Source of the DNA: Nymphaea colorata
Lineage: Eukaryota > Streptophyta > Magnoliopsida > Nymphaeales > Nymphaeaceae
Assembly (NCBI RefSeq): GCF_008831285.2
Contig: NC_045147.1
Coordinates: forward strand, 8,402,334 to 8,466,333
DNA: 64,000 nucleotides
Direction of reading: 5' to 3'
This document shows positions 5,653 to 44,200 of this stretch, piece by piece (within the stretch, counting starts at the first letter, position 1; each line of letters begins with the position of its first letter). The translations under genes and the position numbers were made by a program. The notes under the pieces were generated by a model that was not told the DNA's origin, made no database searches, and saw only the letters and a program-made list of their open reading frames with translations.

Positions 5653-12896
<7,244 letters not shown>

Positions 12897-14298: not shown

Positions 14299-17200
14299 CT
14301 ATGGTACATGATGAGCATGAATAGAATTTCGTATTGCATATCGCTGATCAGCCAACATCCCATTAATATGAATTTGCTCTAGGAAATCCACACGTAAGCT
14401 TTTGAAATAATATGCCTGCTTCAAGTAAAATGAAAATTATCAACCATCCACTAGTTATAAACAGATTGAGCAGCCAATTAAAAAATGTAAATGTTTCATA
14501 GATTTACCTTTGCCTTCCAAGTAAAATCAACTACTCGATAGAAAGGATTGATCAGTGTAAGTCTATCTCCTTCTTTGATCTGATCCAAAGACAACGTATA
14601 GTAAATGTGGAGATGTCTAATGAAATGGGCCGCTATCATGGCAAAACCAAATATCCTATAACTATGATCTCAGGGACAATCATTGGTGTGTAAAAAAATT
14701 GGAAAGAAAAGAAAGAATCCCACTTTGCATTATTGAAGCTCAAGGTTCAGAAGTAATTTATGTAGTTAAAACATGTGTAAGAACTAACACTGCATTTGGA
14801 TGCCACTTTTAAAGGAGGTTTTGGGATGAAAAAACCCTTGTTTTGCCATCCAAACAACGTTTTGGGGTTGTTTAGGCAGCAGCTATCAGCGTTTCTGGGA
14901 AACCCAGTTTTGCAGGCAATGATGTTGCAACCAGGTTGCGAAAAACCTCGTCCCTCCTGATTTTTTACCCCAAGACAATGTTTTGGGTGCGGGCCAGGAG
15001 ACTTGGCAAGAGAATTTTGCTCCGATAGAAACTTGATTGCAGGGACACCAGCGGCTGAACTGAACACCACACCAGGCATAAAACAATGATTGCAGGAGAA
15101 ACATCGTTCATGGGAGGTGTCAGTGGATGAAGTTCCACCTTGGAAGCATTGTTTGTGGTGGAACTGGACAGCAGTGGCTGCCGATTTCAATCTCAATAGG
15201 CAATGGAGAGTTGTTTCTTGTCAGCAACCACACCATAATGTCGAGGCAACGAGCAGGTTTTAGAACTGTTGATTTTTTAATACTGAACTGTCATGGGCTT
15301 GCTTGCATTCTGATCGGGACCCGATGAAAGATATTTACTAAGCAGCTCACAGTTTGATCAGTGTAGAGGGACAAGGCAACCACAGTTTGATTCTCATGGT
15401 GTTGGCCCTTGCAAAAGCCAAAGAAAAGTCATAAAGCAGTCATACTGTTGCTCATAGTAGGGTTAAAGTCCAATTTTTCCACTCATCCTTTCCAAATTAG
15501 ACAGTAAATTATGAACATTTGGTCTGCTAGTTATCCTAAAGAATCTTTTCTTGATCAAATTCTTGTTTGTGTTAAAAGATTACTAAATGCTCTGTGGTTG
15601 GATGACAAATGACTCATATATGCTCCACGTCCCTGTTGGAAACGGGAAAACGAACTCATATACCCCACTCTCTAAATAGCTTCTGCAGATGAAACAAAAA
15701 TAAGAAGCCACTACAAGAGTAGAATGAAAAGAAATTTGAAAGCTCACGGTCAATGACATGAAGCACATACATTAGTGCACAAAATTTCACAGTAACCACC
15801 AAATTGCAATGACACTGATTTTTTAGAGTATCATCAGTCTACATTAGATATTTCTTAATTGTGTCGCATGTCCTTGTATCTGATGCTGAATTTTGGAATC
15901 AAGTTGGACAACTTTTATATATTTGCGATGTTCACATCAGATTATGAGATTTGTAACTGTTGAAGTATGTTAGATGGGTCTCGGGACCGGGTCCGGATCC
16001 GTATCCGATCCAACTTGTAGCCCTTGTTGGGCATTATTTAAGTTGTGTAACCCTAATCCTTATGGTGTGAATGAAAGACAAAGGAGAGAGAGAGTCTGGC
16101 GGCTAGTGGGCACCGGCTCCTCCTCATTCGTGGTTTTTTTCCTCTTGTTGAGGGTTTTTCCACGTTACATCGTGATCGTTGTTTCTCTTCCTCTTCTTGT
16201 TCGTGTTTCTACATGGTATCAGAGCCGACGAGTTTGGGAAATTTTTAGGGTTTGTGAAGTTCCAACCCTAATATCTCTCACCGCTACCATCGCCACCACT
16301 GCAGTCACCGCCGCCGCTGCCGCTGCCACTACCGCCGCTGCCGCCGCCGTTGCTGCAGCAGCCACCGCCGCCGGTGTACCCAATACCACTGTCGCTGTTT
16401 CCGCCGCCGCCGGTGTCACTCTTTGCGCCATCGCAGCCACTCTTGCGGCGTCGCTCTTGCGCCGTCGCTCTTGTGTTGTTGACCGTCGCCGTCACCGTTG
16501 TCCCTTGCGCCACTGCCTTTTGCGCCGTAGTCTTGCTTCCCGAAGAAGAAAGAAGATATGCGTGCTTAGGCGCTTCCTAAGCTTGCCTCCCCCTATTCAT
16601 GTCACTTCCTAGGGGTCTTTTGCAAATCCGGTGAAGTGCATCCGCCTCTTACCTGCAATATATTGCTTGGTTGATCTTTGATTCCATCTTCTTGTTTTTG
16701 TTTGGCGCCCACCGTGCAAGAAGAGGTGGCTGGTCCGTGACTTGGTAGAGGACGTAAAGGAGGAGAGGAGCGTAACTTGAGGATTGCCTCAACGTTTGCC
16801 AGCGCTCCGGCGATCGCATCCCCCTTTCCTTACAAAAGACCGGGGTTAAATTGGTCTTACGGGTGAAGGCTTTCCTCGTCTCGAAGTTGATTTCCTATTC
16901 ACTTCTATACCTTGATACTTGTTGGGTTTTGCCTCTTGGATCTTGTTTCCAGCAAGGAGAACGTGTGGCGAAACCTCTACCCGTGGGAGATTGCAGCCCG
17001 AGAGAGAGAAGGCACCGCTTCCGTCGAGCGACATCGACGATCGTTTCCCCCAATCGACATTCTGTTCACTCTTGGGGCTGATTGGGAATCCGGATATTAC
17101 TGCCCGTTGGTGCTCTCTGTTGTCATCGGTGCATCTCTTGTTGCCTCCTGTTGGACTATCTGTGATTATGGCAGCTTCTTCATCTATAGACGTTATGGCG

Positions 17201-20200
17201 GATTGCCGTATGGGAGAGTGGATCATTGATAGTGGCGCTACTCACCACATGACCGGCGATCCTAAGGTCTTTCATGGGTATAAGCTTTCATCAGGAAAGG
17301 ATCGTGTTTCCCTTGCCGATGGTTCATCTATCTCTGTGGCTGGAAAAGGGAGTCTCCCACTTTTGAACAAGTTCTTAGTCCACAATGCTCTACATGTTCC
17401 TCATATTCCCTTGAATCTCTTGTCGGTTAGCAAGATCACGAAGGAGTTAAATTGCGAACTTATATTTTCCGCTGATCGCTGTGTTATGCAGGACTTGGTG
17501 ACAGGGAAGAGGATTGGGATTGGCCTAGCTTCTGACGGGCTCTATCGTTTACCTATGCGTGCTGCTCAGGCTCTCATGACGGCAGTCAGCCAAGCCACGA
17601 AGAATAGAGAGGACTCCCTTCAGTTGCTTCTACGGTGGCATGAGCGCCTTGGACACTTGCCTTTTGGCCTTCTTAGACAGTTGTTTCCTGATATATGTTC
17701 CAGGTTAGATATGACTATGGTGTCTTGTGATGTCTGTCACCTGGCCAAACATGTTAGGGCTTCGTACCCATTGTCTAGCCATCGGTCTAATGAGGTATTT
17801 GCCATGATTCATTCTGATGTGTGGGGGCCTGCAGGGATTCCTTCTTGTCATGGTTTTCAATATTTTATCACCTTTATAGATGATTATTCTCGTAACACTA
17901 TTGTCTACTTGCTGAAAGACCGTAGTGAAGTTCCTACTGTCATAGAGACTTTCATTGCCTATGTGGAAACTCAATATGGAGCATCTGTTAAGACATTTCG
18001 ATCTGACAATGCTCGAGAGTATATGTGCCAGTCTGTTGATAGCTTCTTTCGAAAAAAGGGAATTGTTCATGAGACTTCCTGTAGTTATACCCCTCCTCAA
18101 AATGGAGTTGCTGAACGAAAAAATCGTCAGTTATTGAATATGACTCGGGCTCTTCTTTTTCAACGTCATGTTCCAAAAAAGTATTGGGGGGATGCTGTGT
18201 TGACCAGTGCGTATCTTATAAACCGGTTGCCTAGTCGCGTGTTGAATGGGAAGACGCCTCACTCTCTGTTACCGGGGACTCGTGAACCTTTCTCTCTTCC
18301 ACTCAGAGTTTTTGGTTGTGTTTGTTTTATTCACAACCATAGTCCTCACATTAAAAAGCTTGATCCAAGATCTATTAAGGGCATTTTTTTAGGGTATTCT
18401 CCCACTCAAAAAGGGTACAAGTGTCGAGACCCTTCCACTGGTCGGGCCTATGTTACCAAAGATGTCACTTTCCTTGAACATGTTTCCTATTTTGGTGAGA
18501 ATCCTCTTCAGGGGGAGTACTCTATGTCACGGGAAGAGTATTCTCCGAGTCAGGAAATTCAGTTTACAGATTTTTTGAACTACAGGCGTGACTCTGTTGG
18601 TCCATCTAGTGATGTGCATGAACAAGAGAAAAATGGTCCATCTAGTGAGGTGCATGAACAGGAGAAAAATGGAGAGTGTTCCACTGAGGCAGAAGAGAAG
18701 TGCAATCGTTTATTTGGGCAAGTTTACTCTAGGCGAAGAGTTTGTACAGATGAGATGACAGGTGGTGAGAATTCTACTCCCAATCCAATTAGTCCTTCCT
18801 TGGATGACCCAAGTCGTGCGCAGAAGCAACCTGTTGAAGAAGAGATTCAGACTGTTGCTGCTAGTGAAGAGCTTCCCATCGCCCTGCGAAAGGGTGTCAG
18901 GTCATGTACTCAACATCCTATTGGTAACTTTGTTTCATATTCTAGACTGAGCAAGGACTACAAATGCTTTGTATCTTCTCTTTCTTTGACTATGATTCCC
19001 AGGAATGTTGCTGAGGCTCAGAGTGATCCTAAGTGGACCTATGCTATGCAAGAAGAGATGGAAGCCTTGCGAAGAAACATGACATGAGAAGTTGTAAAGA
19101 TTTCTGAGGCGGCTCACTTGGTTGGATCTAAGTGGGTCTACACCATCAAGTACAAACCAGATGGGAGTGTTGAAAGATACAAAGCTCGTCTTGTGGCCAA
19201 GGGGTTTAGTCAGAAATATGGGATTGATTATTTAGAGACCTTTGCTCCTGTTGCGAAGATGAAGACGGTCAGAGTCATTATCTCTTTAGCTGTGATGAAG
19301 GAGTGGAAGATGTACCAACTTGATGTCAAGAACGCATTTCTCAATGGAGACCTTGAAGAGGAAGTATATATGTGTATGCCTCCAGGATATGAGGAACCTG
19401 GAAAATGTTGCAAGCTAAGGAAAGCTTTATATGGGCTCAAGCAATCTCCTCGAGCATGGTTTGAACGACTCAGACTTGTCATGAGACAATGTGGATACCA
19501 TCAAGGGAATGGAGATCATACACTTTTTGTAAAGAGAAATAAGCAAAAGGTTACTATTCTGTTGGTATATGTTGATGATATGATTGTCACAGGTGATGAT
19601 GAAGATGAAATAATGAAGTTAAAGAAACTGTTGGCGATCGAGTTTGATCTTAAGGACCTTGGTAAGTTGAAATACTTCCTTGGCATAGAAATTGCTAGGT
19701 CTGGGACTAGCCTTGTGCTAAATCAACGGAAGTACACTCTAGATTTGTTAAAGGAGACTGGGAAACTAGGGTGTAGACCAGCTTCTACTCCTCTAGATGC
19801 TGGCCATAAGCTAAGTCTGAGAGACGGGGAGCCACTCTGTGAAGAGGCAAAAAGAAGATATCAATGTCTTGTAGGGAAGTTAATTTATCTTACTCTCACT
19901 AGACCTGATATTACCTTTGCTGTGAATGTGATGAGCCAGTTCATGCATGCTCCCACGGATGCCCACTTGAAGGCTGTTGACAGGATCTTGTGCTACTTGA
20001 AGAGGAATCCTGGCAAAGGTCTCTTATATGTCAAGCAAGACACTCTTGGGATTGAAGGTTATTCAGATGCAGACTGGGCAGGCTGTATTGACACTAGGAG
20101 GTCCACCTCTGGCTATTGTATTTATTTGGGAGGGAATCTCATAGTGTGGAGAAGTAAAAGGCAAGATGTTTGTTCGCGTTCCAGTGCTGAAGCAGAATAC

Positions 20201-23200
20201 AGAGCTGTTGCTATGGGAGTTTCTGAGCTTTTGTGGCTGAAAGTATTGTTGACTGACATTGGTATAAAAGTTGAAGAACCAATGAAGATGTATTGCGATA
20301 ACAAGTCTGCAATTAACTTGGCCAACAACCCTGTGCTTCATGACAGAACAAAGCATGTTGAGATTGACCGACATTTCATTCGAGAGAGAATTGATGCTAA
20401 AGAACTTATACTTCCTTACATGAGATCTGAAGACCAAACGGCTGATGTTCTGACGAAGGCTTTATCTTCAACCTCATTTGAGAGAAATGTATCCAAGTTG
20501 GGCATGTTTGATATGTATGCCCAACTTGAGGGGGAGTGTTGAAGTATGTTAGATGGGTCTCGGGACCGGGTCCGGATCCGTATCCGATCCAACTTGTAGC
20601 CCTTGTTGGGCATTATTTAAGTTGTGTAACCCTAATCCTTATGGTGTGAATGAAAGACAAAGGAGAGAGAGAGTCTGGCGGCTAGTGGGCACCGGCTCCT
20701 CCTCATTCGTGGTTTTTTTCCTCTTGTTGAGGGTTTTTCCACGTTACATCGTGATCGTTGTTTCTCTTCCTCTTCTTGTTCGTGTTTCTACAGTAACAAT
20801 GAAAACAAGCTGAAAAATGTCCTTTTTTCTTTTTCTCTATCTCTAACTGATATTTTCTGATTTTTTTTGTCATTATGGTATCAAAAAAGTATGTTGACAT
20901 GGATTTTATTGGTTTGTGGTAACTGGTAATTGCATTGTGAAAGCCAAGGTGCTCAAGGATTTGACTCTGATCAAGTAAGCAGCCAGTAATTTCATTTACT
21001 AGGATAATTTGCTAAATGTACTTCTTGTTCCCTTTTATATATTTGGTGTCCAACAACTTCAGACATGGTTAGGTTTTATAGAAGTATCTTCCTAAATGAT
21101 TTCAATGTCTATGTTTTCTAATGATTACATCATTATGACAGAGTGAAGCTAAAATTGCTTTAGGAAGATTTTATAATGCGAATGCATAATCTCAACATGT
21201 TCTAGGACACTTTGGCAAATTCTGTGTTAATATATCCCTCTTCAGAGACAGAAGGCCATTGAGGCTCAAAAGGCTTGTGTGGAACTCAACAGAAAATTCA
21301 GGACTTGATTAAAAAGCTTGAAGATGCTGAAGGAAAGATCGAACAATTTCAACAATATTCTTTACAAAAGTATTTTGTTCAATAACAATATTTGGATGAT
21401 GTGATCATAAGCATTCACTTCATGTTTTATTTGACATTGTTCCTAAGCATATAGTTCATAATTATCTTTATTCTGCAAGTAAATAAGTCTAAAAGCAATT
21501 TGATTGGATATATATTGACAAGCACCATATACAGCTTTCGAATTTTGTTTCTTTCTAATTTTATGCTTCATTGGTTCACATCATGTTGTTCAATTACTTT
21601 TAAATCACATAATCCTATATTGATCATGCTTTTTAGTGCCATTGGCTATTCATTAGATATTGATCATGTTTTTTAGTGCCATTGGCTATTCATTAGATAT
21701 TCTACTTCTTGTCAAATTTAGGCTTGAAGATAAGCTTTCAAAACCGAAATCGTGTGATGGAACTCACATAGGCATTCATCCCATGAAAGGGGAATAAGAA
21801 TCAAGTGATTGAAGCAGAGACTCATCATAAATAGTAGCAGAGAGCAGTCAAATTTTTCTTTTCCCTACCAAATATGTATCTACGATCAGATGTAATTGTA
21901 TGACTGATTGCATTTGTTTAATTGTAATTTAACTGTATTCAATGTTCAACTGAAGCTGAAATTGAATTCTGGAAACACCCTTAAAAACCAGGTTTTTGTC
22001 ATCCAAACAAAAATCAGGTTTAAAAAGTAAAGACCTGGATTTTCTATTGGCATCCAAAGTTTTAAAACCTGGTCTAGAAAATCAGGTTTATATAAACTTG
22101 ATCTTCTCATAACCAGGGTTTAAGGACTTGTGACCCAAACAAGTCCTAAGAAGCTAGCAAGAGTTTCATATCTCATATTGGTCAAATATATCTAGTGACT
22201 GACAAAGCTGGCTCGTCATACAATCTCAGATTTGCAGACGAAAACATAAAAAATACAGTTAACTGGTCAGATAACTGGTAATCAATGCTAACTAATCAAA
22301 CTATTAAAAAACATAAGCATGAAAAACACTTACAGCATTGCTGTGAAGTCCATAAACAGAGAGAATGGCATGTGTATCGTCAGAATCAAGAACGAGAAAG
22401 TATCTGCAAAATGAGCTATTATTTATCTTACAATGAATCCGTAGATGTAGATGAAACTAATTGCCAATTTCTTTCCAATATCTTATTCCGTCTGGAAATT
22501 GATAATAGTCTGCTTGATACCGACCATACCGACCAACAAGCTGATTCATGCAAAACTAAATACCAGCAATACAAAATAGCCAGCCACATGCTTATTGTGT
22601 GGTATTGGAGAAAATTTACATTACGTAAATCCTGAGAATTTTAGAGCCAAATGAAAACTAGATAGACTAAGTCAAAGAGTAGTCACTTACACTGGTGTGG
22701 TAATATCATGTCTAATGAAAAGAAGCACCACAACTTCCAATACTGTTGTTTCATTTTGACCCTCAAGGAGAAGATTTATTGTGCTGATTCTGCATGATGG
22801 ATATCCTTGAGACCAAAACAGAAAAAAAAATTCAATTATAAATACTACATTACTGAAGAGGATAAGAAGTAGAAATGGACCAAAAGAAAATAAAGAATGC
22901 AAGGGAACACCAAATGATAGTGCCAGATACACCTCAATAGCCAATTTGAAAAATAAAAACTTACTCTTAGCAACTGCAGCATTTGACTGAGCTACAGAAA
23001 TGCGTCTCGGCCTTGAGCTTCCCTGCAATAGAGGGGAAATGGAATGTAACAACTTTAGAACCTTTAAAGAAGCAGTAAGACATCTTAAAGAGACGAAAGG
23101 AGAAGCAGAAGAGAGTACAAGTAAGGCATCCTAAGGAAAAAGGAATTATACATAAAAAATCTTGTCTCAAAACCCCCCAACAAAATCGGGTTGCCGAAAG

Positions 23201-26200: not shown

Positions 26201-29200
26201 TCATCACCAGCGCTGTTAGTAAAAAAAAAAAAAAAGATTGGTCTTGGAGGCTATGCATCGATTACCAAAGCGTCAACGCTGTCACAATAAAAAACAGGTA
26301 CCCCATACCCGTTATTGAGGGAACTTTTGGATGAATTACAAGGGGCAGCAATATTCTCCAAGTTAGATTTGAGAGTTGGGTACCATAAAATTGGAATGGC
26401 AATCAAAGACAACCGAAAAACGGCTTTCCAAACCATGAGGGCCACTATGAATTCACGGTTATGTCATTTGGGCTCAAGGATGCTATTATTAACACACCCA
26501 CTTCAACATTGCCCAACTTCAACAGGCCATTTCAGGTTGAGACAGATGCATCAGACTTTGGTATATGTGCAGTGTTCAGTCAGGAGCAGCAGACCACCAC
26601 CTTTTTCAGCAAGGATATGGGAGGAAGATTCAGCTCCAAATCTGCTTATGAGAGAGAACTCGTAGCAGTTGTATTAGCGGTGAGGAAATGGCACCACTAT
26701 CTCCTCCATATCTTTACCGACCATAGCAGCCTTAAGCACTGTATGCAGCAGTGAATGCACATGCCTGCCCAACAAAAAATGGGTAATGAAGCTTATGGGA
26801 TACGATTTCAACAATCTTCTACAAGAAGGGATCAGACAACCTTGTGGCTGATGGCCTGTCAAGGAGGTTTGACCCTCATCACATGGGCGAACCTCTTTGC
26901 AGCTCATATCCCAACCTATTCTGGACATCTGGCATCAGTTGGAAGAAGCACACAGGCAGGCTAAGACAGTGCAAGAAATAAGAAAGAGGCTGGATTCTAC
27001 ATCGCTGCAGACGAGTACACTTGGCGACCTCCCTATCTCCTCTATCAGAACAGAATCTTTGTTCCACCGGAAGCAGGCCTAACCTAACACTGCAGGCTGA
27101 GTTTCATGATGCTAAGGAAGCTGGGCACCAGGATGAAGCGGGACGTCAGGAATTATGTGTGTGTGTGTCCCCAATGCCAAAGGCATAAATATGAAACTCT
27201 CAAACCTATTTGCCTTCTTCAACCCTTGCCAATCCCAGCCCAAGTATGGGAAGACCTTTCTATGGATTTCATAGAAGGATTGACTGATTCAAGAGGTAAA
27301 TCTGTTATTCTAGTTGTTGTTGACAGAATGTCTAAATATGTTCATTTTATGGCCCTTGCTCACCCATTTTCAGCCAAGGATGTAGCCAAAATCTTCCAAG
27401 ACAACATCAGGAAACTACATGGCATCCCAAAATCTATTGTCAGCCATCGGGTTACTCTCTTCCCTGGTCAATTTTGGCAAAGCTACTTCACCCTGCACGG
27501 CACAAAACTGAAGATGAGTACAGCCTACCATCCTCAAACGGATGGGCAGACTAAGGTATTAAATAGAGTCTTGGAAACATACTTACGTTGTTATGCAGAG
27601 CTGTAGCCACACAATTGGGTAGATTACCTATCATGGGCAGAGCTTGCATACAACAAGGCTCAGCATTCAGCCACTAAAAAAAGGTAACCCCCTGTCTTAC
27701 ATCCGCACTATATAAGGCTGTTTAGGCATAACAGCATTACTAATTAATGAAGAGTAAGGTTTAGGATTGGTTAACCCTAGAAGGCAGTGTGTGTGAGTGT
27801 GTTAAGCTTTGTTAGTGTTCCTTATTTGCATTTTAGTGGAGGTAGCTGCCGCCAGCTATGTTTTCCCCAAAACATAGGGCTTGTTTATTGGATATTCACT
27901 CTTATGATGAACCTTCACCCTATCTTGAAGCCAAGTCTTATCAACATTGGATAGAAACTATGAAGGAGCTTAGAGCCTTTAAAAACAATAAAGTCTAGGA
28001 AATTGTTTCTCTTTCCATAGGGAAAAAGACATGTAGATGGGTACATAAAGCTAAGACTAGAAGTGATGGACCATTTGAAAGGTATAAACCTATATTGGTG
28101 TAAGATTTTGGGTGTCGAAGTATAACCCACATCCAAATTCAGCAAAGGAAAGATAAGAGAGAGAACAGGAAAAGAGAAATGAGGAACAATTTCCTATGGA
28201 AAGAGAAACAATTTCATTCTCACACAACCCATTTATATAGTGATCCCTCTACACATTTTACAAGAATCTAAAATGAAACAATCATAATCTATAGCCTAGA
28301 ATGAAGCAACACAATAACCTAGAGTCTAGAATAAAACAATTATCACAATAATCTAGAGCCTAGAGTGAAGCAACACAATAACCTAGAGTCTAGAGTAAAA
28401 CAATTGTCACAATAATCTAGAGCCTAGAGTGAAGCAACACAATAACCTAAAGTCTAGAAAGAAACAATTACAAAAATTGCAATCATAAACCTGCCTAGAT
28501 AAATGTGCTCAGACATGGTAAGACGTGTTGGATCTGAATCAATAGACGTGTTGGATCTGGATCAGATAAGATCCAACATCTTATCATCCTCCCTCAAGTT
28601 GTATATGGTTTTGCACCATGTACAACTTGCCTTTTAGAAACCAAAATCGTTGCTTCGTTAGTCCTTTTGTAAATAAGTCTGCAACTTGTTCATCTGTACG
28701 AACATAAATAAGCTGGATCTTCTTATTTTCCACCTTTTGTCTAATAAAATGTTGATCAATCTCAATGTGCTTTGTTCGACCATGTTGTATGAGATTAAAA
28801 GCAATGTTAATAGCGCTTTGATTATCGCACATTAACATTGGCGTTCTAATCTTTTCTCCAATGTCTTCTAGCAAATGTCTAACCCATGTAACTTCAGTAG
28901 TTCCTACAGCCATGCATCTGTATTCAGCTTCAGTGCTGGATCCTGCCACTGCCTTTTGCTTTCGACAACTCCAGGACACAAGATTACGTCCAATGAAAAT
29001 ACAAAAACTAGAAATGGACTTTCTTTGATCGGGATCTCCAGCCCAATCTGCATCTGTGAATGTCATAAGTTGATGTCCAGTAGTTATATTTTCACTCTTA
29101 CCATAAACTAAGCCATCTCCTGCAGTCCCTTTTAGATATCTTAATATTCTTTTGACAGCATCCATGTGAATATCTCTAGGTGCATGCATGAATTGAGATA

Positions 29201-32200
29201 CTTGATTCACAACATATATAATATCTGGTCTAGTGAATGTAAGATATTAAAGTGCCCCAACAATACTTCAATATTGTGTAGGAACTTCATATAACTCCCC
29301 ATCCTGAGCACTTAGTCTTTGATTTAGAACACTAGGAGTTCCAACAGGCTTACAATCAGACATACTTGTCTTTTTCAGCAGATCCAACGTGAATTTATGT
29401 TATGTCAATGTGAGGCGATTATTGTGCCTATCAATCTCCACTCCAAGAAAGAATCGTAAATCACCAAGCTCTTTCATTTTGAAGTTTTGCATCATCAAAA
29501 CTTTAGCTTTTCTATGTGTTTTTCTGAATTTCCTGTGACAACAATATCATCAACATATATAAGTAAATATGTTTTCCTTTCGATAAATGAAAAGAGAGTG
29601 ATCTAGAGGACATCTCTGAAAACCACATTTTTGAATCCTGCAGGAGAAACTGTCAAACCACGAGCGTGAGGCTTGTTTGAGTCCATAAATGGATTTTCTT
29701 AGTTTACAAACCCATGCATGAGAGTCTCATTTCGTATATCCTGGAGATTGTTCCATATATACTTCCTCCCTCAAATCACTATGAAGAAAAACATTCTTCA
29801 CGTCCATTTGATGTAATCTCCATCCATATTCAACTGCCAATGATATAACCACATGAATTGTTCCCATTTTGATCACAGTGCTGAATGTTTCATCATAGTC
29901 TTCTCCATATTGTTGTGTGAAGCCTCGTGCCACCAATCTTGCCTTGTATTTTTCCACACTGCCATCAGGTTTATATTTAACTTTATAAATCCATTTCGAT
30001 CCTACTACATTCTTTTCTTTGGGTCTAAGAACAACTTCCCATGTCCCACATTCATGTAATGCATCTATTTCTTCATTCATTGCCTTGATCCAATGCGACG
30101 ACTTGGATTCTTCCTCAAAAGAAGTAGGTTCATCTTGTTTTATAACTTGAGACATAAAAAGCTGAAAATCTAAGGAAAGATTATCATAACTTACCCATCT
30201 ATGAATGGGGTGTCGCACTCGCACAAATCTTCTAATAGGCTGATCATAGACTTCAACATGGGAAGAGGTCGGATTGCCATCTCTCCTTCTTTTCTGACGA
30301 GTGTAAACTTGTCCTGAAAATCGACATGAAGCATTGTTTTCTCCTTCTTTCATGGCTAGAACAAGTTCTTTGTTTCCTTATATTTGTGTGATATGTGAAG
30401 ATCCTATCCCATCATGTGGATGGGATTCTAGACTACCTTCTGCAAATAACTCAGCACTTACCCAAGGATCATACGATTCCACGGGTTGAGAATTCTCAGT
30501 AGAAATGTTAAAGTTGTGTTCATCAAATACAACATTTTTTGATACTTTGATGCGTCTGGTTGTAGGGTCATAACATCTGAAACTTTTGTATTCATCTGCA
30601 TAGCCAACGAACCTGCACTGCTTTACTCTGAAATTTATTTCCCAGTGACGAGTCAATGTGAACATAGCACACACATCCGAAAACCCTTAAATCATTATAG
30701 TTTGGATTTCGACCTAAAAGAGTGAAGTAAGGAGATTTTGAATCCAAAACTGTCATGGGCAGACGATTTATTATATGTACAGCGGTGTGAAAAGCCTCTG
30801 TCCATAGAGTAATAGGAGTATTACTATCATGCATCATACTCATACCACTTTCCACGATGTGACGATATTTCCGTTCAGCTACACCATTTTGTTGTGGGGT
30901 GTATGGGCATAAAATCTGTCGAGTAATCCCATTTTCTCGTAAAAAGTTAATGAAGTCATGTGAAGAATATTCTCCCCCACCATCACAATGGAAATTGACA
31001 ACTTTAGATGAAAACTGTGTTTGGATCATGGTATGAAATTCTCGAAAGATATTAAACACTTCCGTTTTTTGTTTCATGAAGTGAATCCAAGTATATCAAG
31101 AATAAAAATCTATGAACAAAACATAATAACGAGAGCCAGACAAGGAATCAATGGGAGTTGGCCCCCCATACATCAGAATAGACAATCTCAAAAGGTTTAG
31201 AAGTTCTTTTATTGATATTATGAAAAAGAAATATATGACTCTTACATAGTTCGCAACTAGAACATTTCTTGTCATAGGAATCAAAGGATAGACTGGACTT
31301 TGGAATGAGATTATCTGATGCAAGTTTTTCCAAAAACCCACGACTACAATGTCCCATACGACCATGCCATAAATTTGACTTACTAACGTCTGATTGGAGA
31401 CAGCTAGAACTTGGAATTTGTGAAGGTGCATTGGAAGGAAAACAGGTCAATTGAGCTGGACTTGAAGAGGCTTGTAAGAAACAAGGATTTTCCTTGAAAA
31501 CATACATATTTCCTTGGCGTTCCCCTTCAGCGAATGTTTTCTTCGTTAGAAAATCTTTGACATACACAGAAAAAGAAGTAAATTCAACAGATGAGTTTGT
31601 ATCATCTACAAGTTTAGAAATGGAAATGATATTCTTTTTTATATTTAGAGCAAGGGCAACATTTGACAAAGATAGTGAAAATGGTGATGTTGGAAGGGAA
31701 ATTTGTGCATTTCCAATATGTGTGATAGGATGAAAACTTTTGTCACCTTTAACTATATTACTTTTACCAAAATAAGGAAGAAGGCCATGTAACTTACCAG
31801 CATTTCCAGTTACATGAGTAGCAACACCTGAATCTAAATACCATTCGCCTTGATCATTTTGTTTCACTGTCATCTTGGAGAGGGCAGTCATAAGTATTTG
31901 TTGTACATTGGCTGGTGGGAGTTTGATATTATGTTCAACTTCAGGTTTATTGCCTCTGTTTTGTGGACTGAACCAGCAATTTGCTTTGATGTGACCCTTC
32001 TTGTTACATTGGAAACAGTTGGCACCTTTTTTCTGGTATTAGTTTGAAATCTTCTTGTAACACTTGGTGTGGGCAGAATACCTTTGCCATCATGCCCACG
32101 ATTTATGCCTCCTTGATGAGCCCCATTTCATTTTCTATGACCTGCAACTTCCATAACTAAAACATTGTGAGCATTACCTTGGTTTGTTCCTCCCATCAGT

Positions 32201-35200
32201 TGTTTCATGTTCATTTCTTGTTGAAGCAGCTTGCCCTGAAGTTCATTGAAGGTGGGCAAGATAGGCAAAACTTCAAGAGCAGTAGTGAAGACATAAAAAA
32301 CTGGTCCAAGGCCGCTAAGAGTCTGCTGGACTTTTTCTTTGTCGGAAACAACATATCCAGCAACTCCCAACTGATCAGCTATCCCTTTAAGACGTCCCAA
32401 ATATTCCATAATCGAAATTGACCATTTGCTAAGATTCTGAAATTCTTTCTTTAAATATAGAATACGTGGCTCTGAAATTTGAGAATAGGTTTCAGCAAGA
32501 CTAATCTATAATTGTCCTGTTGTACAGTCATCAGAAAGAGAAATCAACACTTCTTGAGAGAGCATTGATGTGATATACACAACAACACGTTGATCTCGTT
32601 TCATCCATGTTATAAATTGAGGGTTACGCATTTCCTAAGTGGAAATTGTCTCTCCTCTCTCATTCTTAACCTCCTGTTGAATGAACTGTGGTGGTCCTTA
32701 TGAAAGGAGTGATCTGCCTTTTCCAGGTAAGGTAGTTGGACTGGTTCAGTTTTTCAAAAATAAGATGTGGCAAGAAGTTGGAGGACATATTGGATTGTGA
32801 GAGAATATCCATGATAAATTATATATCTATCAACGTAGATATATACTAACAGAAATATAAGAGTGTTGTCAAGATAGATGAAGGTTTAGGAGCAAAATGT
32901 TAGAAGAGGTATAAGAGAAAACCAATCAAGAGATTTCAAGTCTGTTCAAACATTCTCCTTGGTAGAACCAACAAGACCTTGCTCTGATACCATGTAAGAT
33001 TTTGGGTATCGAAGCATAACCCACGTCCAAATTCAGCAAATGAAAGGTAAGAGAGAGAACAGGAAAAGAGAAATGAGGAAGGGAGGTATAGTTTTACATT
33101 CTCACACAACCCATTTATATAGTGATCACTCTACACATTTTACAAGAACCTAGAATGAAACAATCACAATAGTCTAGAGCCTAGAGTGAAGCAACACAAT
33201 AACCTAAAGTCTAGATTCTCTAGAATAAAACAATTATCACAATAATCTAGAGCCTAGAGTGAAGCAACACAATAACCTAGAGTCTAGAATAAAATAATTA
33301 CAAAAATTACAATCATAACCTTGCCTAGATAAATGCGCTCAGACATGGTAAGACGTGTTGGATCTGAATCAGTAGATGTGTTGGATCTGGATCAGATAAG
33401 ATCCAACATCTTATCAATTAGTTGTTAGGGGACATACTCAAGAATATGGCATAGATTATGAGGAAAACTTTGCTCTTGTTGCTATAATGACATCAAATAT
33501 GACCCTAATAGTTGGAGCAATGATTAAGCAATGGTGCATATATCGATGTCAAGAATGTTTTCTTAAATGGTTACTTTAATGAGGAAGTGTACATGCACAC
33601 ACCCCTGGGCTTGATATACCTGAAGATAAAGTTTTTCATCTTGAAAATGCACTATATGACTTGAAACACATTCTAAAAGCTTGGTTTGATAGGTTTAGTC
33701 AGTGTTGTACATATCGAATGATAACGTATGATACTTACCGTCACGTTTATAAAATGCGATACAATACCCCACCTATGTCATAAACAGGTGGTGTATCGTG
33801 CTTGTATTGCACGTATCGATGATACAGGCACCGTATCATACGATATGGTGCGATACACCCCGTATTGCATGATACGGTCTGATTTCGAGAAAGGTAGGCC
33901 TGAACCACCTTTTTCACGAAACATTTTAAAAAACCGCCCTTTCTTCATTTCTAACCCTAGACACTGTGCTACCTTGGAGGGAAATCATTGATTTTCACCG
34001 TGAAATCATTGATTAAACCGTGGATTTGTGCATGGGTGGCTGATTCCCGTTGGGAGGAAAGGGGTTTTTTAATTTCTTCTCCGTAAGGTATGAAATATCT
34101 TGTTTTTACCATACATTCATATATTTTTACCGTAGATTCATAGATTTCAATTGTTTTTCGTTAAGTTTATCGTAAGTGTTCATTTTTGTGTGAATATATG
34201 GCATCGTCTGATCCCACATGGCAGTGGTGAGAAAGAGTGAAGGAGAATGACCAGTTAAGAATCAAATGTAGCTTTTGTGAGAACACATCTTCAGGAGGGA
34301 TTATTAGAATAAAATTTTGATGTAGCTCCATGCACTGGAAAACTTAGAGAAACCTTTGCCTCCATTTGTGTGTCAGCAATGTGTAGATATGCTTAGTGTT
34401 TTACATAAAAAGAAGGTACGAAAACAAATGAAAGAGGCAAATCGAGGCTATAATGAATCTTGGGAAGATGAAGAAGAAGAAGCTGATGAAAACATCGCAG
34501 ATGATGAATATGACATCATTCTAAGAACATATGTGGAGAGCTCAAGAGGTAAAGGGAAAGGAATCATGTATGAAGGAGGTAGACATGGACCATCTGAAAG
34601 GAAGAGAAGAGGTGTACCAGATATTAGGCATGGCCATGGACCTAGTGGTAAAGTTCCTAGTGGTAGGTCTAGTGTTGGTTCTATTAGAAATTTTTTTTCT
34701 TCTTATACTAACCCAAGTTGTCAGCCCCATATTCGTGCCGATATGACATCCAAAGATATGTTACATCAGGCACAATTGACGGTAGAGAAATGTTTTATGA
34801 TGCATATATTCCTTTTAATGCAATTAATTCCTTTCAGTTCCAGGCCATGGCAGATGCAATTGCTTCTATAGGCTATGGATTCAAAATGCCATCATATCAT
34901 CAATTGAGGGGCAAAATTCTTGAAGCTACGATGAAAGAAGTAATGGAACATTGCGATCAGTTGAAATTAAGTTGGAAGGAAACAAGTTTAGTAACGTTAT
35001 GGTTAAACGAGGTTTTAAATCATGTTATTCTGACACTGTTATGGTTGTTAAAAATACTACTACCGGCACCGGCACGTAGATGACATGATTATCACAAATA
35101 ATGATGTCTAAAGAATTATGCAGGTAAAGCATTTTCTAAAGAATGAATTTGAAATGACTAATTTGGGTAATCCAACATATTTCCTTAGTATTGAAGTGGT

Positions 35201-38200
35201 TTATAGTAGAAGGGGAAATTCTAGAGAATCTCAAGCATTTTCGTCACCTAGTTGGAGCTCTCACATATATATCAATTACAAGGCCTGACATATCCCATGT
35301 TATACATGTCATACATCAATTCCAACAAAGACCTACTTTTGTACATGTGGGAGCTGCATTGAGGATTGTTCGATATGTCAAACACACTATAACTAGGGGA
35401 CTCTTTCTATCCCCCTCATTTTAATTTGAATGTGATCGCTTATACTGATGTTGATTGGAGTGGAGATTCTAATAATAAGCATTCCACCACCGGTTTTTGT
35501 GTTTTCCTAAATAACTCTCTTGTCTCTTGGAGGAGCAAAAAGCAAAATAAAATTTTTCTATCTTCAACCAAAGCAAAGTATCATGCTATGGCCACCACTA
35601 CTATGGAGATTGTATGGTTAAGGAGTTAAATGAAGGACATTATTAGAACTGATTTGACTGAAGCTACTAAGCTTTGTTGAAACAACAAAAGTGTCGTCTA
35701 CATTGCTAGCAATCATACTTTACGTGAAATGACAAAACATATTGAAATTGATTAGCATTATGTGATAGAAGAATATCTCAGTCGAACAATTGAGATATTC
35801 TTCACTAAGGCACTTGCTTCAACTAGATTTCTTCAGAATATCAACTTGGAGATTTCTTCACTAAAGCACTTGCTTCAACTAGATTTCAGTTCCTTCTTAG
35901 CAAACTTTCGGTAATCATACCGTAAGTTTGAGAGGGGATGTTAGCATTTAAGGTTTAGATATCTTGTATGCATGCATATAAATCTTTATATGTACTGTCA
36001 TATGTCATATAACCTTGGTTGTTTGATATATGATTTGTATATATTTATATATATATGTGTGTGTGCATAGGTGTTCGCACCCCTCCCCGTCCTCGGGGGC
36101 GTCGATGCGAATCAACAAAATTGTCAAATTGGGTTTTGAGGAAAAATTTTAAGAAAAAGGGATCCAGCCATCGGCACGAGGTCCAACCGTTCTTTAACAA
36201 GGATAATTGAACCGAGGACTAAGGATTCTTTAGATCGTGTACAAGTTATTGATGCAAATCCTATATGCTTATGGCTTATGCATTGAGGCTTTGGATTTGA
36301 AAATTGAAAGTTCATTTCAAACAAATGATTTGAACTTGTTTAGGAGTAAAATTGATATAAGTTGCTTGGAAAAATGACTTGTTTTGACAAGTTATTTGAA
36401 AATTCTTTGGAGAGTTTTCAAATTGATTTGTATTGAAGGCCATTGTTTTGGTCGAAATTATGTCATTTGAATTGAATGAGATTGGTTTGAAATGAATAAT
36501 CATCATGATTTTAATCAATGATTTTGAAAGTTGAATTATCAATTTGACGACTTAGTGTTAGGCGCAAGTTATTTCATAGCATGTTATTTCTATTCATTTC
36601 TGTTTCTGCTCTTTATTGCCCCGCGTCTCAGTTCAGTCATTGCTTTTGTACGAGTCGGGTCCAGTTAGGCTTTTGTTAACCCAACCCATCACCCGATGTA
36701 CTTAAGCTCGATTAAGGGCAATTAAACCCTAATGAAGAAGTATTTGGCGTGAGAGAAGTTGGGCTTCGTGTGTGGCTTTGTGAAGGTTACAGCAGAGGGC
36801 GGCGTTGATCAGGCACTTAGCCGTGCAGAGGCTAACAAGGTATCAGAACTTCAGCGACCATGGCGGAAATGATCACAGCGAGAGATGCGATTGTAGCGGT
36901 GGAACAACATCGCAATCAGGTGGAAGCAGCAATCAGCGGCCTGGAAGGGTGGATGCATGGAATGGATCAACGCCTGAACGCTGTGGACGCATGATTGGAG
37001 GCCATGATGGTGGAGCAACAGGCAATGTCGGTGCTTTTACATGAAAGTCTGTGGCAGGGTTCTCAGCAACGTTCCCCTAATTCTGACCAGACTCAATCTG
37101 ACGATCGCAGGGAACAAGGATGGCTAGTGAACGACACAGGAGGAGCAGCTTGGCAACCGGCGAAGATGGAGTTTCCAAGATTTTCAGGGCACGACCCAGT
37201 GAGTTGGGTGTTTTGCACCGAACAATATTTCGACTGCCAAGGGATTGTGGGCGATCATAGAGTGAACCAAGCGGCAGTGTATTTTGAAGGTGTGGTGATA
37301 CATTGGTACCGCTGGTTGCTATAGCACCAAGGAAAACCTGATTGGGAAACATTGGTCAAGGAGATCACATCTCGCTTTGGTCCGTCGGCATATCTTGATT
37401 ATAATGTTGAATTGTCGAGGATCAAATAGATGGCTACGGTGGTGGAGTACCAAGGAAATTTTAAAGCTTTGACTAAAATGGTGCATGGATGGCCCATCGA
37501 GGCCTTGATCGGAGCCTTCGTAGGCAGACGTAAGGATGAAATACGTATTGAAGTTCAAGTATGAAGCCACAAACCTTATTGAACTACTTCGAACTTGCTC
37601 GCACGGTGGAGGAGAAAAACAAGCGACTGCATGTAACCAGTCGGCGCACATCAGCAGAAATTGGTCGGATGTGAGGAGCAGTCCGCGCTAGATGATGAAA
37701 CCTGAAGTTTTTTCATATGCCGCAGGGAGAAACCAGAAAGGAAACGCGCCTCACCAAGTTGTGAGACACTTAACACCAGAACATATCAAGGAAAAGAGCT
37801 GGCAGGGCATATGTTTCTACTGCGACTGCCCTTGGATACCAGGGCATAATTGCAGGCGACTGCACATGTACCTCGTGGAGGAAGGCGACGAACCACTAGA
37901 GGTCAACGAGGATTCCCCTTTAGCCGCTAAACCAGACACCAATGAGGAACGGATGACACCAAAAATCTCACTGCATGCCCTGGCTGGTGATGAGGTTCTG
38001 CATCTGATGCGTGTGAAGGGCAAGTTGCAAGGCCGACAGGTGAGCGTGCTGATCGACACTGACTCGACCCACAATTTCATTTGTGAGAAGCCTGCTCGAG
38101 CTCTTGGATGCGGCATGGAGGCTCAGCCAACTTTTGACGTGGTCGTTGATGACGGTAGCACATTGAAGTGCAAAGGTAAATGCCAGTTGGAAAAGTTGCA

Positions 38201-41200
38201 TATCCAGGGTCTTCAGTTTCCTGTACAGCTGTATATTCTAACCATGGCGGGAGCCGACTTGGTGTTGGGCATCCAGTAGCTGCACGAGTTGGGAGAGGTT
38301 GTATGGGATTTCGTAGGTATGAAGATGCAGTTTAGAGGACCCGCGAACGAAAAGTTCACACTTGAAGCAAGTCCCTGGCGACCTTGTTTAGAAGCCCCAG
38401 CCACACGTCTGATGAAAGGATCGACGACCTCTTTCCTTTTGCTCTCAACTCAAGTACCCATGCATGTCGAAGCGCAGGGTCAGTGCGGGTCTGAAGGGTA
38501 TCGAAGAACGCTGCAGGAATTACTACATGAGTTCAATCCAGTTTTCATCCCACCCAAGATACTGCCACCTGAGCGAGGACACGAACACCGCATTGAGTTA
38601 CAGCCAGGGTCGGAACCAGTTAAATCACGACCCCACCGCTACAGTCGTGTGCAGCAAGAAATGCTAGAGGAACTTGTGCGGGAAATGCTGAAAAGGGGGT
38701 GATTCAGCCAAGTCGCAGCCCCTTTGCATCGCCCGCCTTATTGGTCAAAAAGAAAGATGAAAGCTGGCGTTTCTGTGTGGACTATCGTGCGTTGAATGCC
38801 ATCACCATCAAAGATAGGTATCTTATACCTATTGTGGAAGATTTGCTAGATGAGCTTCATGAGGCATGTATATTTTCCAAACTCGACTTGTGCTTAGGTT
38901 ATCATCAAATCCGCGTTGTGAAGGAAGACATTCCTAAAACTGTTTTCCACACCCACGACGGGCACTACGAGTTCACCGTCATGCCATTTGGGTTGACAAA
39001 TGCACCCTCCACCTTTCAGTAGCCGATGAATGATGTATTTTGCCCCTTCTTACGACGGTTCGTATTGGTATTCTTTGATGATATTTTGATTTACAGCTGT
39101 AGAAACACGAACAAGAAGAGGAAGAGAAACAACGATCACGATGTAACGTGGAAAAACCCTCAACAAGAGGAAAAAAAACCACGAATGAGGAGGAGCCGGT
39201 GCCCACTAGCCGCCAGACTCTCTCTCTCCTTTGTCTTTCATTCACACAATAAGGATTAGGGTTACACAACTTAAATAATGCCCAACAAGGGCTACAAGTT
39301 GGATCGGATACGGATCCGGACCTGGTCCCGAGACCCATCTAACATACTTCAACACTCCCCCTCAAGTTGGGCATACATATCAAACATGCCCAACTTGGAT
39401 ACATTTCTCTCAAATGAGGTCGAAGATAAAGCCTTCGTCAGAACATCAGCCGTTTGGTCTTCAGATCTCATGTAAGGAAGTATAAGTTCTTTAGCATCAA
39501 TTCTCTCTCGAATGAAATGTCGGTCAATCTCAACATGCTTTGTTCTGTCATGAAGCACAGGGTTGTTGGCCAAGTTAATTGCAGACTTGTTATCGCAATA
39601 CATCTTCATTGGTTCTTCAACTTTTATACCAATATCAGTCAACAATACTTTCAGCCACAAAAGCTCAGAAACTCCCATAGCAACAGCTCTGTATTCTGCT
39701 TCAGCACTGGAACGCGAACAAACATCTTGCCTTTTACTTCTCCACACTATGAGATTCCCTCCCAAATAAATACAATAGCCAGAGGTGGACCTCCTAGTGT
39801 CAATACAGCCTGCCCAGTCTGCATCTGAATAACCTTCAATTCCAAGAGTGTCTTGCTTGACATATAAGAGACCTTTGCCAGGATTCCTCTTCAAGTAGCA
39901 CAAGATCCTGTCAACAGCCTTCAAGTGGGCATCCGTGGGAGCATGCATGAACTGGCTCATCACATTCACAGCAAAGGTAATATCAGGTCTAGTGAGAGTA
40001 AGGTAAATTAACTTCCCTACAAGACATTGATATCTTCTTTTTGCCTCTTCACAGAGTAGCTCCCCGTCTCTCAGACTTAGCTTATGGCCAGCATCTAGAG
40101 GAGTAGAAGCTGGTCTACACCCTAGTTTCCCAGTCTCCTTTAACAAATCTAGAGTGTACTTCCGTTGATTTAGCACAAGGCTAGTCCCAGACCTAGCAAT
40201 TTCTATGCCAAGGAAGTATTTCAACTTACCAAGGTCCTTAAGATCAAACTCGATCGCCAACAGTTTCTTTAACTTCATTATTTCATCTTCATCATCACCT
40301 GTGACAATCATATCATCAACATATACCAACAGAATAGTAACCTTTTGCTTATTTCTCTTCACAAAAAGTGTATGATCTCCATTCCCTTGATGGTATCCAC
40401 ATTGTCTCATGACAAGTCTGAGTCGTTCAAACCATGCTCGAGGAGATTGCTTGAGCCCATATAAAGCCTTCCTTAGCTTGCAACATTTTCCAGGTTCCTC
40501 ATATCCTGGAGGCATACACATATATACTTCCTCTTCAAGGTCTCCATTGAGAAAAGCGTTCTTGACATCAAGTTGGTACATCTTCCACTCCTTCATCACA
40601 GCTAAAGAGATAATGACTCTGACCGTCTTCATCTTCGCAACAGGAGCAAAGGTCTCCAAATAATCAATCCCATATTTCTGACTAAACCCCTTGGCCACAA
40701 GACGAGCTTTGTATCTTTCAACACTCCCATCTGGTTTGTACTTGATGGTGTAGACCCACTTAGATCCAACCAAGTGAGCCTCCTCAGGAATCTTTACAAC
40801 TTCCCATGTCATGTTTCTTCGCAAGGCTTCCATCTCTTCTTGCATAGCATAGGTCCACTTAGGATCACTCTGAGCCTCAGCAACATTCCTGGGAATCATA
40901 GTCAAAGAAAGAGAAGATACAAAGCATTTGTAGTCCTTGCTCAGTCTAGAATATGAAACAAAGTTACCAATAGGATGTTGAGTACATGACCTGACACCCT
41001 TTCGCAGGGCGATGGGAAGCTCTTCACTAGCAGCAACAGTCTGAATCTCTTCTTCAACAGGTTGCTTCTGCGCACGACTTGGGTCATCCAGGGAAGGACT
41101 AATTGGATTGGGAGTAGAATTCTCACCACCTGTCATCTCATCTGTACAAACTCTTCGCCTAGAGTAAACTTGCCCAAATAAACGATTGCACTTCTCTTCT

Positions 41201-44200
41201 GCCTCAGTGGAACACTCTCCATTTTTCAACTGTTCATGCACCTCACTAGATGGACCATTTTTCTCTTGTTCATGCACCTCACTAGATGGACCAACGGAGT
41301 CACGCCTGTAGTCCAAAAAATCTGTAAACTGAATTTCCTGACTCGGAGAATACTCTTCCCGTGACATAGAGTACTCCCCCTGAAGAGGATTCTCACCAAA
41401 ATAGGAAACATGTTCAAGGAAAGTGACATCTTTGGTAACATAGGCCCGACCAGTGGAAGGGTCTCGACACTTGTACCCTTTTTGAGTGGGAGAATACCCT
41501 AAAAAAATGCCCTTAATAGATCTTGGATCAAGCTTTTTAATGTGAGGACTATGGTTGTGAATAAAGCAAACACAACCAAAAACTCTGAGTGGAAGAGAGA
41601 AAGGTTCACGAGTCCCCGGTAACAGAGAGTGAGGCGTCTTCCCATTCAACACGCGACTAGGCAACCGGTTTATAAGATACGCACTGGTCAACACAGCATC
41701 CCCCCAATACTTTTTTGGAACATGACGTTGAAAAAGAAGAGCCCGAGTCATATTCAATAACTGACGATTTTTTCGTTCAGCAACTCCATTTTGAGGAGGG
41801 GTATAACTACAGGAAGTCTCATGAACAATTCCCTTTTTTCGAAAGAAGCTATCAACAGACTGGCACATATACTCTCGAGCATTGTCAGATCGAAATGTCT
41901 TAACAGATGCTCCATATTGAGTTTCCACATAGGCAATGAAAGTCTCTATGACAGTAGGAACTTCACTACGGTCTTTTAGCAAGTAGACAATAGTGTTACG
42001 AGAATAATCATCTATAAAGGTGATAAAATATTGAAAACCATGACAAGAAGGAATCCCTGCAGGCCCCCACACATCAGAATGAATCATGGCAAATACCTCA
42101 TTAGACCGATGGCTAGACAATGGGTACGAAGCCCTAACATGTTTGGCCAGGTGACAGACATCACAAGACACCATAGTCATATCTAACCTGGAACATATAT
42201 CAGGAAACAACTGTCTAAGAAGGCCAAAAGGCAAGTGTCCAAGGCGCTCATGCCACCGTAGAAGCAACTGAAGGGAGTCCTCTCTATTCTTCGTGGCTTG
42301 GCTGACTGCCGTCATGAGAGCCTGAGCAGCACGCATAGGTAAACGATAGAGCCCGTCAGAAGCTAGGCCAATCCCAATCCTCTTCCCTGTCACCAAGTCC
42401 TGCATAACACAGCGATCAGCGGAAAATATAAGTTCGCAATTTAACTCCTTCGTGATCTTGCTAACCGACAAGAGATTCAAGGGAATATGAGGAACATGTA
42501 GAGCATTGTGGACTAAGAACTTGTTCAAAAGTGGGAGACTCCCTTTTCCAGCCACAGAGATAGATGAACCATCGGCAAGGGAAACACGATCCTTTCCTGA
42601 TGAAAGCTTATACCCATGAAAGACCTTAGGATCGCCGGTCATGTGGTGAGTAGCGCCACTATCAATGATCCACTCTCCCATACGGCAATCCGCCATAACG
42701 TGGGCAGTAATATCCGGATTCCCAATCAGCCCCAAGAGTGAACAGAATGTCGATTGGGGGAAACGATCGTCGGAGCGCCGGCAGACGTTGAGGCAATCCT
42801 CAAGTTACGCTCCTCTCCTCCTTTACGTCCTCTACCAAGTCACGGACCAGCCACCTCTTCTTGCACGGTGGGCGCCAAACAAAAACAAGAAGATGGAATC
42901 AAAGATCAACCAAGCAATATATTGCAGGTAAGAGGCGGATGCACTTCACCGGATTTGCAAAAGACCCCTAGGAAGTGACATGAATAGGGGGAGGCAAGCT
43001 TAGGAAGCGCCTAAGCACGCATATCTTCTTTCTTCTTCGGGAAGCAAGACTACGGCACAAAAGGCAGTGGCGCAAGGGACAACGGTGACGGCGACGGTCA
43101 ACAACACAAGAGCGACGGCGCAAGAGCGACGCCGCAAGAGTGGCTGCGATGGCGATGGCGCAAAGAGTGACACCGGCGGCGGCGGAAACAGCGACAGTGG
43201 TATTGGGTACACCGGCGGCGGTGGCTGCTGCAGCAACGGTGGCGGCAGCGGCGGTGGCTGCTGCAGCAACGGCGGCGGCGGCAGCGGCGGTGGCGGCGGT
43301 GGCAGCGGCGGCGGCGGCAGTGGCAGCAGCGGCGGCGGCGGCGGCGGTAGTGGCAGCGGCAGAGGCGGCGGTGACTGCAGTGGTGGCGATGGTAGCGGTG
43401 AGAGATATTAGGGTTGGAACTTCACAAACCCTAAAAATTTCCCAAACTCGTCGTCTCTGATACCATGTAGAAACACGAACAAGAAGAGGAAGAGAAACAA
43501 CGATCACGATGTAACGTGGAAAAACCCTCAACAAGAGGAAAAAAAACCACGAATGAGGAGGAGCCGGTGCCCACTAGCCGCCAGACTCTCTCTCTCCTTT
43601 GTCTTTCATTCACACAATAAGGATTAGGGTTACACAACTTAAATAATGCCCAACAAGGGCTACAAGTTGGATCGGATACGGATCCGGACCCGGTCCCGAG
43701 ACCCATCTAACATACTTCAACAACAGCAAAGACGAACAGGAACATATTCAACATCTGTGCATTGTATTAATAGTGCTAAAGCAACATCAACTGCACGCTA
43801 AACTCTCAAAGCGTGTCTTTGGTACATCCAAGATTGCGTACCTAGGACATGTGGAACAAGAAAAGGTCCAAGCCGTAAAAGAGTGGAGCATTCCAAAAAC
43901 GGTAAGAGAACTGCGCGCATTCCTTGGGCTCACAGGTTACTACTGCAAGTTTGTCAAAAATTATGGTCTTGTGGCTGCACCTCTCACAGCACTAACAAAG
44001 AAGGGTCGATTCGTGTGGAACCCTCAAGCGGAACTGGTGTTCCAACAATTAAAGGAGGCAGTGACAACAGCCCCGGTTTTACAGATGCCCAATTTCCAGC
44101 TTCCTTTCACCGTTGAATCGGATGCATCAGATTTGGGGGTAGGAGCTGTTCTTAGTTAAAGCAGCCATCCAATTGCTTATTTCAAGAGAGCGATGGGGCC

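Follow-up and report, generated by a model that had tools for sequence, protein, structure and literature searches.

Copias A and B are two long terminal repeat (LTR) retrotransposons in a 64,000-nucleotide stretch of Nymphaea colorata DNA (NC_045147.1, positions 8,402,334 to 8,466,333 of the forward strand; the window below). Both belong to a large, recently spreading clade of Ty1/copia elements without gag, and both are probably recent insertions of a clade that propagates as a parasite of the Gag of other elements. Their parts are listed here, with TSD for target-site duplication, PBS for primer-binding site and RT for reverse transcriptase.

15958-20792, plus strand: copia A, complete at both ends, with TGTTGA..TCTACA LTRs and a 5-bp TSD
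15958..16213, plus strand: 5' LTR of copia A (TGTTGA...TCTACA), 256 bases
16214..16226, plus strand: PBS of copia A, TGGTATCAGAGCC, which we take to be of the initiator tRNA-Met type
16214..17167, plus strand: leader of copia A, with a GCC-type triplet repeat and without gag
17168..20542, plus strand: pol frame of copia A, a MAASSS remnant fused to protease, integrase and RT-RNase H
20537..20792, plus strand: 3' LTR of copia A, a copy of the 5' LTR, with TSD GTAAC on each side
39098-43722, minus strand: copia B, complete at both ends, with TGTTGA..TCTACA LTRs like those of A
43466..43722, minus strand: 5' LTR of copia B, 257 bases
39098..39354, minus strand: 3' LTR of copia B, with one difference from the 5' LTR; TSD ACAGC (plus strand)
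39349..42696, minus strand: pol frame of copia B from its ATG (MADCRMGEW...), 1,115 codons, open and without a stop

Both elements show the Ty1/copia order of protease, integrase, RT and RNase H, together with TG..CA LTR ends, a PBS, a polypurine tract (PPT) and a 5-bp TSD. Pfam finds Pol_BBD (protease), gag_pre-integrase (gag_pre-integrs), integrase (rve) and RVT_2, in that order, in the copia B frame and, spread over two frame pieces, in copia A; it finds no gag family in the frame of B or the two pieces of A, and the gag with a CCHC knuckle expected of a Ty1/copia element is missing from these pol frames. An earlier note on the window had the coordinates, LTRs, TSDs and missing gag of both elements right: the LTRs of A are identical at 256 of 256 sites, those of B differ at 1 of 257, and both TSDs are exact. 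It was also correct that the frame of A opens with MAASSS, all that is retained before the protease, and that B is without it. The 1,128 codons that it gave for the pol of B stand as an open frame (39349-42735) initiated at TTG, and come to 1,115 when counted from the first ATG (42696). The single stop in the pol of copia A, at 19085-19087, had gone unmentioned.

The 38-base gag-less junction of copia A, with up to 3 mismatches allowed, occurs at 68 places in the 407.8-Mb assembly (39 of them exact), and the reversed control at none. These places include copia A and exclude copia B, whose own junction is the sole match spanning the whole of its 201-base query (40 of 147 candidates scored). The leader end followed by the gag start occurs at 70 places, namely the same 68, L062, which is gag-less with 3 extra bases, and L073, which bears gag; 69 of the 70 are without gag. 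An A-type protease pattern occurs at 168 places, 100 of them listed: 66 of these carry the junction of A, five are B and L060-L063, and the remaining 29 form a sister group that mostly carries ATCATCGA. All eight sister-group copies read, from the 29 listed, are gag-less, with an LTR about 0.5-1.2 kb upstream of the protease and no gag match between the two.

The measure of gag is provided by a third element in the window, which represents the likely Gag-donor clade.

45475..50671, plus strand: copia C, gag-bearing relative, with the gag ATG at 46104

The first frame of copia C contains gag families by Pfam, and the element is young (1 LTR difference, TSD ATTGC). Queried with C gag, L056-L063 and L069-L072 match no more than the part next to the protease, beginning at residue 153 or later of about 198; the one exception, in L058, is a 20% match on the opposite strand that lies upstream of the LTR. 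Across the genome, 4,596 first-look candidates were obtained with a 155-residue piece of C gag, and 150 of them were scored (80-100% identity). These 150 listed gag hits were compared with the 100 A-type protease places listed out of 168, and not one of these places falls within 4 kb downstream of a hit. Nor did any of the copies read or listed combine gag with A-type pol.

These searches bear on the idea that a gag-bearing master, since lost or absent from the assembly, has its gag deleted afresh in each burst. A gag-bearing copy with the same leader does exist, L073, but its pol is C-type and not A-type; the identical junction at 68 places across subclades, and the absence of gag hits upstream of the listed protease places, also argue against repeated deletion, which we consider very unlikely. 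The leader itself was considered as the source of a substitute Gag. This is unsupported: leaders hold triplet repeats, and L045-L047 are without a 456-bp stretch, although neither a Pfam scan nor a conserved-frame test was applied to the leader.

Of the other 67 junction places, 27 were fetched (20 exact matches and 7 with 2-3 mismatches), which together with A and B gives 29 copies. Their LTR pairs differ by no substitution in 12 copies, by one in nine and by 3-14 in eight (L047 contains Ns); 23 have an exact TSD, and in 13 neither a stop nor a frameshift interrupts the pol frame. A tree was built from 28 of them, without L042; 9 of its 25 inner forks are open. Copia A falls there beside L027 (2 differences) and copia B beside L037/L040, on separate twigs of this one gag-less tree. 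The propagating gag-less subfamily proposed in the earlier note, here searched for with the junction of A, is thereby borne out, many of its copies being young (21 of 29 with at most one LTR substitution). The opposite case, in which only A and B would lack gag and would descend from separate gag-bearing parents, does not hold, given the 68 places and the single gag-less tree.

Two details of the sample deserve mention. L046 (C15:3238100-3244100) and L047 (C15:3384000-3390000), about 146 kb apart and adjacent in the tree, have the same 3' flank, CTTAG, and are probably a single insertion copied by segmental duplication. L031, L033 and L041 share a stop in pol codon 757 although they stand apart in the tree, through either recurrent mutation or recombination.

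The pol of the gag-less copies bears the mark of use. Across the 28 copies of the tree, variants private to one copy comprise 191 nonsynonymous (N) changes, 73 synonymous (S) changes and 8 stops, and those shared by two or more copies 43 N, 63 S and 1 stop; the two N/S ratios differ with a Fisher P of 1.3e-8, and the private variants lie near the neutral expectation of 2.47 (transitions weighted 4:1). L046 and L047 were both retained in these counts; as a probable duplicate pair they would inflate the shared class with neutral changes. Pairwise dN/dS between B and the other 27 copies is 0.14-0.47 in 25 cases. Shared pol variation is under purifying selection, and private variation looks neutral. 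Because all copies are gag-less, this variation postdates the loss of gag, unless conversion from gag-bearing copies intervened, and the selection signal indicates that the elements' own Pol is in use. It points to a pol that matters and to Gag alone as dispensable.

If instead Gag and Pol both came in trans from the C clade, the gag-less pol would be a mere passenger. C-clade open frames are abundant, and 16 of the 29 gag-less copies, A among them, have a broken pol; but amino-acid changes are strongly depleted among shared relative to private variants, and the gag-less pol is distinct from that of C (B versus C, 80% amino-acid identity, with synonymous sites saturated at dS ~1.6 and dN 0.13). 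We therefore regard a passenger pol as unlikely.

In the case of Gag, the clade of copia C is the likely source, judged from what its members encode and share. An open frame of at least 1,440 amino acids with a stop-free match was counted from the listing for 33 of the 150 scored gag hits. The first eight gag loci are C-type over the stretches compared, and five gag copies of lower identity, L064-L068, have C-type pol (84.6-89.9% to C, 71-74% to A), with the exception of a short 3' piece of L065 that is 83% identical to A. The two clades also resemble one another outside the coding region. Over LTR and PBS, A and C are identical at 82% of positions, rising to 93% in a 45-column window, and they agree in all of the last 15 bases before the 3' LTR; L064, with its gag and C-type pol, has an early LTR-leader that is 91.5% like the sister gag-less group. 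L073 begins with a 1.36-kb LTR-leader like that of the gag-less family (81-91%), closest over its first 330 bases to the sister group, and continues with gag and then C-type pol. The full relative with matching leader and gag that the earlier note proposed to look for thus exists in one copy, with the reservation that its pol is C-type and its gag frame only 229 amino acids long.

Contact between the clades is recorded in L042, which the sequence comparison marks as an RT-type recombinant of gag-less and C-type elements. Its 5' two thirds are of the gag-less type, and from the RT region onward, as far as the 3' LTR, comparison windows are 91-98% like C. In total 15 of its 47 windows, at U3 and at the 3' end, are closer to C, against none in each of the other 28 copies. 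Both of its LTRs combine a C-like U3 with a gag-less-like R-U5. Such a chimera at both ends points to first-strand transfer between two RNAs in one particle rather than a single DNA crossover. Its LTRs differ at 14 of 254 sites (the edges include some flank), which makes it older, and its TSD reads by eye as CAGAC/CAAAC. The dS of 0.40 between L042 and the others was at one time taken as proof of an old gag loss, an argument dropped once the windows revealed the recombinant.

Recombination between integrated DNA copies could also join such sequences, related copies being spread over contigs C1 to C15, and L042 and L073 would then say nothing of shared particles. A single DNA crossover would, however, leave a parental LTR at each end, and both LTRs of L042 carry the same U3/R-U5 chimera; this origin seems improbable. 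The comparison of both LTRs rests on L042, as L073 was read in its 5' part only.

The leaders have changed in a second way, by the loss of segments that begin with GT and end with AG. The sites concerned in A and B are these.

16863..16952, plus strand: i90, a 90-bp GT..AG leader segment retained in A; L036 lacks it exactly, and L022 lacks it with one substitution
17092..17093, plus strand: site in A of the missing 80-bp GT..AG segment i80, which is retained in L034, L043 and others
17106..17189, plus strand: i84, an 84-bp GT..AG segment in A that holds the MAASSS start and is exactly gone in B
42701..42702, minus strand: junction GCCC^ACG in copia B, left by the loss of i84, the 84-bp GT..AG segment that contains MAASSS

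Seven leader deletions of at least 60 bp outside the triplet repeat were written out, and four are exactly GT..AG: i80 (A versus L034), i90 (L036 versus L034), i84 (B versus A, with no sliding possible) and i176 (L060 and L063 versus L034), which uses the same donor as i80 and whose product is found at 3 genome places. A random leader deletion can be written as GT..AG in 0.46% of 20,000 draws (0.0046 each), so that four of seven has P ~1.5e-8 if the events are independent. Among 41 leaders i80 is retained in 10, gone in 29 and unclassified by motif in 2, and i90 is retained in 15, gone in 2 and unscorable in 24. These absences are scattered over separate tree positions, that of i80 extending to L032, outside the main clade, and that of i90 falling in L022 and L036, of different clades; repeated splicing or recombination could account for them. 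The lost segments are T-richer than their flanks. In the sister group, L059 compared by eye with L058 suggests another intron, with its acceptor mutated in L059. A repeat-mediated loss of i80 via GATATTAC was ruled out, as it would leave GGTGAA.

The same leaders have lost a 227-bp segment (21 of 41) and the 456-bp stretch (L045-L047), neither of them GT..AG, and have changed in repeat length, as expected if all the losses were ordinary deletions without splicing. The four exact events among seven, the scattered positions and the T-richness all speak against this, and we consider it quite unlikely. The removal of MAASSS from B is an exact GT..AG event and one of several in the leader, which argues that spliced RNAs were apparently reverse transcribed into heritable copies; the extra loss in B looks like a reverse-transcribed splice form and not like further decay. 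In the open-licence literature, no clear precedent was found for reverse-transcribed spliced copies of LTR elements.

Taken together, supply of Gag in trans is the best explanation, which we infer from the recombinant L042 and from the common LTR and leader sequences. Gag-less RNA would be packaged in particles built of C-clade Gag, and the Pol that copies and integrates it would be translated from that same RNA or from a sister gag-less one, acting mainly in cis. The common R-U5, PBS, PPT and some leader sequence would carry the signals for packaging and priming, and the clades would swap these regions by template switching within common particles. Intron-ended leader segments would sometimes be spliced out before packaging, and the spliced RNAs, once copied, would found new copies; B would have lost MAASSS in this way. 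A bolder version, doubtful at present, is that of an old, diversified clade of obligate Gag parasites with cis-used Pol that evolves via its own reverse-transcribed splice forms. The gag itself may even have been spliced away, from its start region to a point just short of the protease: intron-ended leader segments have disappeared precisely and more than once, and upstream of the protease the A-type and sister junctions take up again in the same manner (TATAGACG / TATCGACG).

Several observations weigh against Gag parasitism with reverse-transcribed splice forms. Three of the seven leader deletions are not literally GT..AG (one being the i90-like loss of L022), i80 and i176 have a common donor, and a 173-column gap in L010 and shorter gaps fall outside the seven. 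Windows closer to C occur in just one of 29 gag-less copies, the gag of copia C is itself split by a frameshift, and the LTR similarity of A and C could reflect constraint and not exchange. On the side of pol, there are the 16 broken frames, and dN/dS reaches 0.84 (B-L031) and 1.55 (B-L039), both from few changes. The sample covers 27 of the other 67 places, and 20 of these are exact pattern matches.

Elsewhere in the window, 28099-33416 (minus strand) holds an older copia whose pol is in broken pieces and whose terminal repeats agree at about 94% over the matched stretches. A sulfate permease fragment, likely a host gene exon, lies at 10995-11489, and a frame at 53464-54513 matches Retrotrans_gag (PF03732), a gag family that differs from that of copia C. 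A search of a plasmid collection gave no match.

The closest known systems are Tos17 and RN304 of rice, followed by BARE2 of barley. Tos17, a copia element, has LTRs, PBS, PPT and a pol frame of 1,058 residues; its two Nipponbare copies contain neither gag nor any remnant of it, and it is thought to use the Gag of the related complete element Lullaby; RN304 is also without gag (PMC3977881). The family of A and B fits the Tos17 features tested, gag being absent across the subfamily (69/70) with pol retained (13/29 open), and it appears to work in the same way, as a gag-less, pol-bearing copia with a Gag partner that is deduced in rice and presumed here. It differs from Tos17 in copy number, with one junction repeated at 68 places and a sister group besides, and in keeping a trace of the gag start; moreover, one copy is a recombinant with the donor clade, the leaders have undergone GT..AG losses, and pol carries a signal of selection. 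The definitions of LARD and TRIM elements, which have no coding capacity, do not describe a family with open pol under such a signal.

BARE2, which the earlier note had named as the model for Gag in trans, is a weaker parallel than Tos17, because an 8-bp deletion took its gag start codon, whereas Tos17 and RN304 are without gag. BARE2 is held to use BARE1 particles, and BARE1 splices to make Gag RNA (PMC3735527). To that extent BARE2 is, like A and B, a non-autonomous copia that cannot make Gag. Gag is not abolished in A and B by loss of the start codon: nearly the entire gag is gone, A keeping the start (MAASSS) and B neither. The splicing of BARE1 yields Gag RNA, while in the A/B family the splice-like losses affect the leader and have become permanent in the DNA of the copies. 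In soybean, an autonomous and a non-autonomous partner reportedly swap LTRs, to go by the title of Du et al. 2010, and to the extent of that title the pair resembles the A/B and C clades as partner families that exchange LTRs. The amplified TARE1 family of tomato has some copies without gag; unlike the A/B family, most of its copies are reported with the full gene set, and those lacking gag are called incomplete (PMC3701649). For ONSEN of Arabidopsis, recombination in LTR R regions and inside elements is ascribed to co-packaged RNAs; it occurs within one family, and that of L042 between gag-less and gag-bearing clades (PMC5668417).

The open-licence literature searched yielded no description of a gag-less copia clade whose leader splice forms had been reverse transcribed. 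Tos17 is the clearest gag-less copia with pol in the literature compared; the rice reference genome carries two copies of it, and its partner is deduced. In the present genome there are dozens of gag-less copies, many young ones among them, in two gag-less subgroups, along with abundant gag-bearing partners, an RT-type recombinant, a gag-bearing copy that shares the leader and repeated candidates for spliced RNAs turned into heritable copies. Such diversity in one genome makes the division between own Pol and borrowed Gag testable largely by sequence.

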